Below are positions 22,661 through 37,252 of a DNA stretch of 64,000 bases, piece by piece. A program made the position numbers and the translations under genes. The number at the start of each line of letters is the position of its first letter. Position 1 is the first letter of the stretch. The DNA is taken from NCBI GenBank assembly GCA_031266185.1, contig JAISBM010000001.1, forward strand, positions 1 through 64,000, given 5' to 3'. Under the pieces are notes generated by a model. That model saw nothing but the letters and a program-made list of their open reading frames with translations. It ran no database searches and had not been told where the DNA came from. This DNA is from Endomicrobium sp. (GTDB lineage Bacteria; Elusimicrobiota; Endomicrobiia; Endomicrobiales; Endomicrobiaceae).

Positions 22661-23218
22661 TTGAACTTTAAAAGTCATTTTAAAGATTTTGTAATAGATC
22701 TAAAATTAAACACTAACGCAATGGGCGTTACAGTAACTACCATTGCGTTAATACCTGACTTGACCCTAAAGACTCCCCAAACCTTTAATGCTGTATACGT
22801 AGACAAGACAGACAGAGCACAATACACTCTTGATTTTCCAGACAGAGAAGTTAAAAATTCTTTTCTACAAAGTTTATTAAGTTTTTAAACTACATACCCT
22901 TAATGAGTCTACACAAACGTCTAAAAAAAATAATAGAGCAGCTTAAAAATGCTGATGAGCAAGGACTAAAAGGCAATTTAACTAACTTGCTTGCACATTT
23001 ACCTTACCAAATAAGAGTTAAAAATGAGAAATATTATCATTCGATATTTTGCTTAGAACGCTTGGCTTTGACATATAGGCTGAAGAATATATGCTGTCTT
23101 AAAACAAGACGACTTTGTTGAGATAAAGTATAGTGTTGAAAAGCAATTAGACAAGATGTTGGAGACCGCTCCTATTAAGTTAGTGGATAGAGCTTATTTT
23201 TGTAAAATTAATTCATGA
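22661..23218 (+). pseudogene. Decayed PD-(D/E)XK nuclease end of an AAA-ATPase-like (DUF1703) protein
   Basis: Pieces of one protein lie in different frames: YTLDFPDREVKNSFLQSLLS (stop at 22888), then RLKKIIEQLKNADEQGL and HLPYQIRVKNEKYYHSIF (22903-23050), then RTLGFDI, and QDDFVEIKYSVEKQLDKML up to RAYF (about 23100-23200). The order and wording (FPDREV, YYHSIF, FVEIKY) match the C-terminal PDDEXK_9/DUF1703 part of the AAA-ATPase-like family. Several frameshifts and stops make it non-functional. The ATPase half is absent. A palindromic element sits in its front part, and its end meets the DUF4143 ATPase gene tail to tail. Confidence 0.7.
22714..22750. repeat. Structured palindromic element, copy 1
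   Basis: Outer arms 22714-22724 and 22740-22750 (TAACGCAATGG and its exact complement) enclose an inner stem GTTAC/GTAAC with a one-base loop. A second copy lies at 25164-25209. Confidence 0.75.
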
Positions 23219-24404
23219 GCCAATTTAACAAATTGATTTGCCGTATGCCATTATAAGATAAGTCTGCATAATCCATGGTCAATAAAAATTTTGGGTTATG
23301 GTCTTTTATATTATCAAGAGGCATGATTTCTCTGTCAAAAGTTTTTGGGTCTATCACGCTTTGTGAAACCTGATAATATTCTACTATTCCGTCTATATTT
23401 TGCGCTACAAAGTCAACTTCCTTATCACCGACTTTACCTATTGAGATTTTATATCCACGACGCAAGAGTTCAAGATACACAACATTTTCTAACATATGGC
23501 CTATATCTCTTGTGGTATTATTAAGTAAATAGGAACGCAACCCCATATCAGCTATATAATATTTGTCGTTTGTTTTAAGCAGCTCTTTGCCTTTTATGTC
23601 GTAACGCCCTACTTTGTATAAAATATAGCTGTTGATTAACGCAGACAGGTAATTTTCTATTGTTTGCACATCTATTTTAAAATTATCGCTTTCCATCTGC
23701 TTTTTAATGTTGTTTATAGAAGTTTCGTTTCCTATATTGTCAAACATAAAGGTTATCAATTTTTCAAGTCTAGAGACATCGCTTATTTTTTTCTTTTGTA
23801 CAACGTCTTTTAAAATAACTGCATTATAAAGAGAATCTAAATATTCATTTATTTGAACACGATTCCTATTAAAATTTAACGTATAAGGAAATGAACTATT
23901 GTTCAGATAATCGTTAAATTTTTCTGGCAAATTGGTTTTGTCTTTTAGTGCCGAAACATATTCCTTGAAAGAAAGAGGAAACATTTTGATTTCAACATAT
24001 CTACCAGAAATCAGCGTAGCAAGCTCTCCAGAAAGTAGATAAGCGTTTGAGCCAGTTATATAAAGATCAACATTTTTTTTCAAATGTAAACTGTCAACCG
24101 CTTTCTGAAAATCCTGTACATTTTGTATTTCGTCCAAAAACACATAATTTTTTTTATTTTTTATAAGCCTTGTTACTATATAATCGTATAGACTCTTCCA
24201 ATTAAGTAAATGGCGGTTTGCTTTATCTTCAAAATTTATATTTTGAATTTGTTTTTTAGTTATTTTGTTTTTTAACAGATAATTCTGATACAGTTCAAAT
24301 AAAGTAGATTTGCCACAACGGCGTATTCCTACTACAACTTTTATAAGTTGTTCAGTATCTTTATAACTTATGATTTTTTTTAGATATGACGGCCTTTCTA
24401 TCAT
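23208..24404 (-). CDS. AAA ATPase with DUF4143 domain
   Basis: The 398-residue protein has AAA_14 Walker A GIRRCGKSTL near residue 30, Walker B NYVFLDEIQN, sensor YITGSNAYLL and the FKEY box. The C-terminal DUF4143 domain has the PD-(D/E)XK-like line GDKEVDFVAQ followed by YYQVSQSV. I start at ATG 24404, behind GGGGGTTGCT, since homology begins with MIERPSYL; the open frame extends 13 codons further. Proteins of this group are frequent in Bacteroidales and gut symbionts; their function is unknown, with defence or mobile-element links suspected. It looks intact while relatives on both sides are broken. Confidence 0.82.
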   Translation of the reverse strand: MIERPSYLKKIISYKDTEQLIKVVVGIRRCGKSTLFELYQNYLLKNKITKKQIQNINFEDKANRHLLNWKSLYDYIVTRLIKNKKNYVFLDEIQNVQDFQKAVDSLHLKKNVDLYITGSNAYLLSGELATLISGRYVEIKMFPLSFKEYVSALKDKTNLPEKFNDYLNNSSFPYTLNFNRNRVQINEYLDSLYNAVILKDVVQKKKISDVSRLEKLITFMFDNIGNETSINNIKKQMESDNFKIDVQTIENYLSALINSYILYKVGRYDIKGKELLKTNDKYYIADMGLRSYLLNNTTRDIGHMLENVVYLELLRRGYKISIGKVGDKEVDFVAQNIDGIVEYYQVSQSVIDPKTFDREIMPLDNIKDHNPKFLLTMDYADLSYNGIRQINLLNWLMN

Positions 24405-24449
24405 AGCAACCCCCGTTTGTAAATATAATAGCAGGAAAAACATAAGAAG

Positions 24450-25138
24450 TCAATTTTTAGAATGAAACCTAAAAATTACAAAACAGATGATAATATTTTG
24501 ACCCAAATCTAAAAATAATAAATTTTCTGAAAGTATTTCGTTGATCATTGCTTCAAAGGACGGTGCTTTCTCTTGCATAGAAAATTCAACATACTTAGCA
24601 ACTCCGCCAGAAAGAGCATACATTGCAAATAAATCTTCGTTGGTATGTTTGGGGTAATAATCGTTGAGAATATTTTTAAGTGTATCAATAGAAAATGGAA
24701 GTAGCTGTACTCTGGACGTGGCTCTTCCAAAAAGAGGTTCTTTTGAATTTTCAAAAATTTTATGCATCAAAGGATAAATAGAACCACACAAAATTAAATT
24801 GATGTGACTTGAGTGTTTATTTATATCCCATATATGTTGCATGTCGCTATAAATAGAGGAATTAATATTAAAGAATTCTTGAAACTCATCAATAATCAAA
24901 GTAAAAGATTGATGCTTTGATAAGTCCATAATATAGGCAAATAAATCTTTTCTTTTATTTCATTAAGATATTCTCGGCAAAGCAGAGATTCAATTTTTTT
25001 TAGCTACAAAAAAATAAAGAGTTGTAGTTTTTCTGTAAGCTTCTGTAAGTAAAGTTGTTTTACCTATACGTCGCCCCGGCCAACCATAAAAGTCATCTGA
25101 GCGTTTTTAGAAGAAATTTGTTTAAAAAATTTAAACAT
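24450..25138 (-). pseudogene. Broken archaeal-type ATPase (ATPase_2 family)
   Basis: The 3' part (24929-24450) is one frame with Walker B FTLIIDEFQEFF, LILCGSIYPLM, ATSRVQLLPFS and YALSGGVAKYVEF. The 5' part is in other frames: MFKFFKQISSKNAQMTF from ATG 25138 (GGAGG eight bases before), then YGWPGRRIGKTTLLTEAYR with Walker A. At least one frameshift falls between the two, and the C-terminal nuclease-like domain is missing (the frame ends with DLGQNII plus unrelated residues). It is a different ATPase family from the neighbouring DUF4143 gene. Confidence 0.75.
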
Positions 25139-25163
25139 TAATTTCATCCTCCACCATATTAAT

Positions 25164-25209
25164 ACTAACGCAATGGGTATTACAGTACAGTAATCGCCAT
25201 TGCGCTAGT
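25164..25209. repeat. Structured palindromic element, copy 2
   Basis: Outer arms 25164-25176 and 25197-25209 (ACTAACGCAATGG against CCATTGCGCTAGT, one mismatch) enclose ATTAC/GTAAT with a six-base loop. It has the same architecture as copy 1 at 22714, with a compensatory change in the inner stem (G-C there, A-T here). Confidence 0.75.
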
Positions 25210-25295
25210 ATATCAAATATTTGGAACTAAAGAAATAATGATTGTAAAACAAATCTGCGATTTTATTGATGAGTTAGAAATGTGCTAGACTTAAC

Positions 25296-26552
25296 TTAAA
25301 TTTTAATTCTTTTAATATTTGCGCCAAGTGTTTTTAATTTTGTTTCAAGTGCGTCATATCCTCTATCTAAATGATAAACTCTTGAAATAACAGTTTTACC
25401 TTCAGCAGCAAGTCCTGCCAAAACTAAAGCTGCACCTGCTCTTAAGTCTGAAACCATTACAGGTGCTCCGGACAGTTTTTTTACGCCTTTTACTAGCACT
25501 TTATTCCCACTTGCTGTAATATTTGCGCCAAATCTTTGTAGTTCAGACACATGCATAAATCTACTTTCAAAAATTGTTTCAGTTATCTTAGAGGTTCCCT
25601 TAGCAAGGCACATTAGTGCCATCCATTGAGCTTGCACATCTGTAGGAAAACCTGGATAAACGCCAGTTTCAATATTTTTAGGTTTTAAATACTTTGTCCA
25701 CTTTACAGAAATTGTATTTTCTGTTTCTTTTATAGTAATGCCACAACTTTTTAAATTTTTGCTTATAGTATAAAGATGCTTTGGCTCTACATTTTTAATG
25801 GTAACATGACCTTTTGTTATTGCAGCTGCAATCATATAAGTTGCAGCTTCTATTCTATCTGGAATTACAGAATGAACAAACCCTTTTAGCTTTTTTGTTC
25901 CATTTATAATAATTTTGTTAGTACCTGCTCCTGCAATGTTTGCGCCCATTTTAACTAGGACGTTTGCTAAGTCTTCTATTTCAGGTTCTCTAGCTGCATT
26001 AATAATGGTGGTTTTCCCTTCTCCTAAAACTGCGCTAAGCAGTACGTTTTCTGTAGCTCCAACGCTAGGAAATTTAAAATGTATAACGTTACCTTTTAGT
26101 CCATTTTTAGCGAAAGTTTTTACATACCCTTCGTCTATAGAAATTTCTGCTCCTAAATGTTTAAACGCATCTAGATGTATATCGATTGGCCTAGAACCTA
26201 TTGTGCACCCTCCAGGCAAAGAGACGTCAACTTTTTTAAGTCTTGCTAGTAATGGTCCCATTATTAAAATACTAGCTCTCATTTTTCTCACTAGATCATA
26301 CGAAGCAATGTGTTTGTACTTTTGTTTAGATATAACTTTTACAGTAGGGCCTTTTTTTATTGCTTTTTTCCCTATAAAATTTAGAAGTCCTATAGTGGTG
26401 TCAACATCTGCAAGAGATGGTACATTTTTTATTATAACAGGCTCATCTGTAAGCAAGGAAGCAAACAAGACAGGCAAAGCGGAATTTTTTGATCCAGATA
26501 TTTTTACTTCTCCTTTTAATTGATTGCCGCCATGTATTAAAATTTTATCCAT
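25296..26552 (-). CDS. murA: UDP-N-acetylglucosamine 1-carboxyvinyltransferase
   Basis: The 418-residue EPSP-synthase-fold enzyme catalyses the first committed step of peptidoglycan synthesis (UDP-GlcNAc plus PEP). Visible are MDKILIHGGNQLKGEVKISG, KNSALPVLFASLL, the active-site loop PGGCTIGSRPIDIHL with the catalytic Cys (fosfomycin target), PDRIEAATYMIAAA and GVYPGFPTDVQAQWMAL. Cys rather than Asp is present, so fosfomycin sensitivity is expected. GGAGAC precedes ATG 26552. Full length. Confidence 0.97.
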   Translation of the reverse strand: MDKILIHGGNQLKGEVKISGSKNSALPVLFASLLTDEPVIIKNVPSLADVDTTIGLLNFIGKKAIKKGPTVKVISKQKYKHIASYDLVRKMRASILIMGPLLARLKKVDVSLPGGCTIGSRPIDIHLDAFKHLGAEISIDEGYVKTFAKNGLKGNVIHFKFPSVGATENVLLSAVLGEGKTTIINAAREPEIEDLANVLVKMGANIAGAGTNKIIINGTKKLKGFVHSVIPDRIEAATYMIAAAITKGHVTIKNVEPKHLYTISKNLKSCGITIKETENTISVKWTKYLKPKNIETGVYPGFPTDVQAQWMALMCLAKGTSKITETIFESRFMHVSELQRFGANITASGNKVLVKGVKKLSGAPVMVSDLRAGAALVLAGLAAEGKTVISRVYHLDRGYDALETKLKTLGANIKRIKI

Positions 26553-37209: not shown

Positions 37210-37252
37210 AAAAGTAGAGAGTCATGATTTTATTGTGACTCTCTACTTTTTT
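37210..37252. terminator. Perfect 15-bp terminator after the autotransporter
   Basis: Arms 37210-37224 and 37236-37250 (AAAAGTAGAGAGTCA and exact complement), loop of 11, T-run to 37252. A and T runs on both sides allow function in both directions. The 37031-37209 stretch shows nothing else. Confidence 0.85.

Follow-up and report, generated by a model that had tools for sequence, protein, structure and literature searches.

Introduction

Plasmid Rep or partition proteins bind iteron arrays and repress their own synthesis, and C-boxes are the sites at which the controller proteins of restriction-modification systems bind. Here we describe an array of comparable layout, in which short dyad units recur at a pitch of 15 bp in front of genes for AAA+ ATPases of the ATPase_2/DUF234 family. 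We consider two palindromes, H1 and H2, in a 64,000-nucleotide stretch of DNA from Endomicrobium sp. (positions 1 to 64,000 of contig JAISBM010000001.1; hereafter the window), where they flank the remains of such a gene. The genus, Endomicrobiellum, comprises symbionts of termite-gut flagellates and also takes in Candidatus Endomicrobiellum roisinitermitis (G017). We think it fairly probable that H2 is the operator of the now broken DUF234/ATPase_2 ATPase gene, and that the ATPase would most likely bind the array by a winged helix and regulate itself.

As in iteron arrays, tandem units at a fixed pitch lie over the promoter of a gene whose product probably binds them. The differences are that no replication or partition function is known here, the product being an AAA+/DUF234 ATPase, and that subfamilies differ in unit sequence but share the pitch. 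The likeness to C-boxes lies in tandem dyads over the start of a defence gene (here a candidate one) that is, or in our case would be, autoregulated. The reader of C-boxes is a small separate controller protein, however, whereas the candidate reader here is the ATPase itself. Repetitive extragenic palindromic (REP) sequences and bacterial interspersed mosaic elements (BIMEs), with their REP-associated tyrosine transposases (RAYTs), offer an imperfect palindrome of similar length, but the array described here is not dispersed and is tied to one gene family.

The gene that follows the array is a member of PDC-S27 (ATPase_2/DUF234) of PADLOC, which is a defence candidate only and for which 3503 genes have been counted in archaea and 4562 in bacteria (PMC12988326). 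In the open-access literature that we searched (most subscription journals lie outside it), we found no report of arrays upstream of DUF234 ATPases, either in the description of PDC-S27 or elsewhere, and no mechanism or trigger of PDC-S27. A conserved fixed-pitch array tied to PDC-S27 across domains of life provides a concrete candidate ligand for the ATPase, and the array family is large enough for direct testing.

Results

Dyad units at a 15-bp pitch precede DUF234 ATPase genes

The palindrome resolves as TTATCGCAA-N6-TTACTGTAA-N6-TTGCGATAA, that is, as three 9-bp near-dyads with a pitch of 15, and the broken DUF234 ATPase gene of the window has H2 23 nt upstream of its start codon. The same palindrome recurs before intact DUF234/ATPase_2 ATPase genes, ∼10–20 nt from their start codons, in Bacteroides sp. 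519, which is among the matches listed in a pattern scan of GTDB contigs, and in genome G055, where it directly precedes the homologue. The Bacteroides sp. 519 palindrome (TTATCGCAATGGAGATTACTGTAATGGCCATTGCGATAA) ends 18 nt 5′ of the ATG, and the protein that follows is intact, with 435 residues and both ATPase_2 and DUF234 domains, and is a PADLOC PDC-S27 candidate; the window copy is broken. Homologues with ∼25–50% protein identity have other unit sequences at equal position and pitch, in bacteria and archaea alike: GTTTCGGAAACAGCC and ATTTCGGAAACGGCA in Parabacteroides, TATAATTTGAATTAT in tandem in Cetobacterium, GTTATAATAACACAG and GTTATCATAATAAAG in Arcobacter, GATTACCGTAATCAG and GATTACGCTAATG in Mesorhizobium, and GATAATTTCAATTAT and CATAATTATAATTAT in Methanocaldococcus jannaschii. 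A reading made from the window's letters alone (the sequence-only reading) had proposed a link between the palindromes and ATPase genes; that link is right, and it is much broader than proposed, with arrays before one ATPase family in bacteria and archaea.

The 15-bp pitch was spotted by eye in these homologues and then tested by autocorrelation at lags 6–30 (25 lags) against dinucleotide shuffles. At 28 ATPase starts the mean z is 3.15 at lag 15 and below 1 at all other lags, with lag 15 at the top in 22/28. The same lag is top at 0/68 neighbouring gene starts, 0/17 regions further upstream and 1/17 downstream regions. A later set of 21 additional Elusimicrobiota homologues gave lag 15 as the highest in 8 cases and lag 16 in 7 (15/21 together), and a 16-bp pitch is seen before the starts of divergent DUF234 homologues (L261, L263, L265, L266, L267, L269 and L279). 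DUF4143 ATPases have no lag-15 periodicity before their starts (mean z 0.35), and none is found before the intact DUF4143 gene of the window.

The array is located between −10-like motifs (read by eye) and the ribosome-binding site, reaching the start codon in some loci, and the neighbouring genes differ each time across bacteria and archaea. Repeated units at constant pitch before a gene, as in protein-binding iteron or operator arrays, are present at these ATPases in a defined position, are specific to one ATPase family and are conserved across phyla and domains. In the window's H2 the pitch is broken and the top lag is 20, as expected because the gene is dead; the H2 of genome G012 keeps the pitch.

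Pairing and covariation of the palindromes

The two palindromes that the sequence-only reading had placed at 22714–22750 and 25164–25209 stand far above chance. H1 and H2 are near-palindromes and direct repeats of each other, with 89% identity over 27 nt. They rank second and third among the palindromes of the window by our own palindrome score, and their RNA folding gives z-scores of −4.0 to −7.2, with 0–1 of 200 shuffles equally stable. The strongest palindrome of the window, at 37210–37250 (AAAAGTAGAGAGTCA...TGACTCTCTACTTTT), is terminator-like.

The paired inner change between the copies, G–C in H1 and A–T in H2, is borne out, and had been taken to mean that the fold is kept. The interpretation given in the sequence-only reading is, as a whole, partly supported. 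For the eight Endomicrobiellum copies alone, covariation is not significant (the observed score is reached by 200/500 shuffles). Once the set is enlarged to 12 by four copies from other lineages, covariation rises above the shuffles, which reach the covariation score in 2/500 cases and the number of paired cells in 3/500, and the set includes a clean A–T to T–A swap. G–U cells outnumber A–C cells on the sense strand of the Endomicrobiellum copies (24 versus 4), which have a common descent and may exchange sequence, but outside the genus the G–T and A–C counts are 5 and 6, without strand preference. Dyad units at a fixed pitch yield a pairing and covariation signal like that over the 12 copies, and in front of several homologous ATPases the pitch of 15 bp is retained although the sequence has no stable fold. 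Because of this and of the missing strand preference outside the genus, three DNA dyad units spaced regularly at 15 bp are a better explanation of the kept fold. The Endomicrobiellum and Bacteroides version looks like a folded palindrome because its outer units mirror each other.

Distribution of copies and decay of the module

We built a covariance model from the eight Endomicrobiellum copies and searched it in 42 genomes of the genus, then in 341 Elusimicrobiota genomes. Within the genus, meaningful scores were obtained for those eight copies only. The larger set contributes G165 and G051; G055 comes in with a model of 12 copies, whose training set contains it. Across the 341 genomes there are thus two copies at this one locus in four sister species and single copies in three other genomes (G165, G051 and G055), that of G051 being an orphan. 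The sequence-only reading had named an absence of further copies in the genome as telling against its proposals, and no further copy was found in the window's own assembly, which amounts to 828 kb and is 52% complete. Weak model matches in G103, G113 and G048 are probable chance matches within coding sequence, and a match in G168 is an unrelated terminator-like repeat. An attC-like structure, judged by eye, was rejected as too short and lacking the R-box consensus. Rfam gave one sub-threshold unrelated match only, and neither the palindrome nor relatives of the ATPase turned up in scans of IMG/VR.

Three genomes of sister species (G017, G006 and G012) carry both palindromes at the corresponding intergenic region, which in G018 measures ∼125 nt and has no palindrome. 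A damaged ATPase_2/DUF234 gene lies between the palindromes in G017 and G006; the insert of G012 is mostly deleted, and its palindromes are ∼50 bp apart. This comparison shows that the supposed graveyard of ATPase genes is one DUF234 module in decay across four sister species and struck by a second ATPase family, DUF4143/AAA_14. In the window a gene of the second family sits where the DUF234 gene would have its 3′ half, and the window's genome (G000) has 12 listed matches to this ATPase (PDC-S01), several of which have internal stops or are fragments of one copy (examples of the matches are C15:39231-40418, C15:44351-45468 and C4:108486-109609). The sequence-only reading had counted one intact and two broken ATPase genes between the palindromes. 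The intact AAA_14/DUF4143 gene and the broken ATPase_2/DUF234 gene are both there, and the broken pair is only half confirmed because the remaining remnant, whose longest open piece was searched, matched no Pfam family.

In G165 the palindrome is followed by the 5′-most ∼40 nt of a DUF234 gene and then by DUF4143-like sequence (read by eye; L203 6574-6900), a switch that parallels the replacement in the window.

Alternative explanations for the palindromes

Had the palindrome been a REP-like dispersed repeat, its imperfect symmetry and its size would fit, but the copies are limited to two per genome at one locus, with no dispersal in its own 52%-complete assembly or in 340 related genomes. This proposal is therefore refuted, and we give it practically no weight. 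A transposition end fares little better. It is very unlikely that H1 and H2 mark the termini or attachment sites of an ATPase module mobilized by recombination or transposition: the pair does flank the module in four species, and TnsC is among the matches of the family profile, but everywhere outside Endomicrobiellum the palindrome is a single copy upstream of the gene and never one of a flanking pair, and no palindrome accompanies a related copy of the ATPase in G007 (C40; DNA 85% identical).

An RNA function is somewhat easier to entertain but still improbable. A hairpin in the 5′ leader of the ATPase mRNA, stabilizing the message or gating the ribosome-binding site, would agree with the strong folds of H1 and H2, the 12-copy covariation, the G–U excess within Endomicrobiellum and the location near the mRNA start; set against these are the even G–T and A–C counts outside the genus, the many homologues with the pitch but no stable fold, and the equal covariation expected of dyad units at a fixed pitch. 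We hold it just as unlikely that an unlinked host repressor reads the array as its operator. Such a protein would suit an array over the transcription start with subfamily-specific sequences, yet a single pitch tracks a single ATPase family over bacteria and archaea while the neighbours change from locus to locus. These comparisons correct the reading of the palindrome as a mobile or RNA element.

A proposed operator mechanism

If H2 is the operator of the DUF234 ATPase gene, the intact ATPase would bind the array via the winged-helix domain that separates its AAA+ domain from DUF234 and, when bound, would repress or switch its own transcription. An ATPase oligomer with fixed geometry would read the units at their set spacing; this geometry is suggested by the pitch, which holds at 15 bp (16 bp in one divergent group) even though the units differ in sequence from one ATPase subfamily to the next. 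The family layout is AAA+, middle region and DUF234. The middle region matches HTH_5 in one homologue (E 3e-5) and in others gives weak matches to different winged-helix families; the family profile matches PDB entries 2fna and 2qen and also TnsC, a transposition ATPase.

Several points weigh against this mechanism. The helix-turn-helix match is absent in 2/5 middle domains, and an AlphaFold prediction of the Bacteroides ATPase with two sequences had a predicted local distance difference test (pLDDT) score of 41 and was unusable. The 16-bp group was recognised only post hoc, and the array could instead be read by a second, unlinked regulator. There is also no gene placed for H1 to act before, and H1 is as well kept as H2. 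H1 is probably a remnant of module duplication or of exchange between copies; a second regulatory role is possible.

A broader proposal is more tentative, and we regard it as plausible but somewhat doubtful. Defence-candidate AAA+ ATPases across bacteria and archaea may carry a subfamily-specific array over their start, with a near-invariant pitch of 15 or 16 bp, read by an ATPase oligomer that sets the pitch, and the array may also serve as a sensor or assembly platform. If true, this would be a built-in self-recognition site of a kind so far undescribed.

Layout of the locus

The segment from H1 to H2 is flanked by metQ and by a gene of the 5-enolpyruvylshikimate-3-phosphate (EPSP) synthase family (Table 1).

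Table 1. Features of the H1–H2 locus (window coordinates)
Feature	Position	Strand	Details
metQ	ends 22650	+	
H1	22709..22753	-	second array copy, same orientation as H2, 3′ of ATPase; units TTAACGCAATGGTAG, TTACTGTAACGCCCA, TTGCGTTAGTG
Remnant	22756..23207	+	partly common to G017 and G012
AAA_14/DUF4143 ATPase gene	23208..24443	-	intact; PADLOC PDC-S01; likely start 24404
ATPase_2/DUF234 ATPase gene	24450..25138	-	broken; start codon 25138; 2 TGA and 1 TAA inside; 3′ half missing
H2	25161..25210	-	operator-like array; three ∼9-bp dyad units; pitch disrupted by 5-bp expansion
EPSP-synthase-family (murA-like) gene	25296..26552	-	

Two further observations concern the surroundings of the arrays. 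The sequence CTGACTTGACC adjoins H1 (window 22755–22765); in G017 its inverse is found close to the 3′ end of the ATPase, and the G055 array has a copy upstream (records L163 and L207). A tyrosine recombinase gene adjoins the DUF234 ATPase in three unrelated records (L088 589-1554, L213 4333-5301 and L218 1847-2917).
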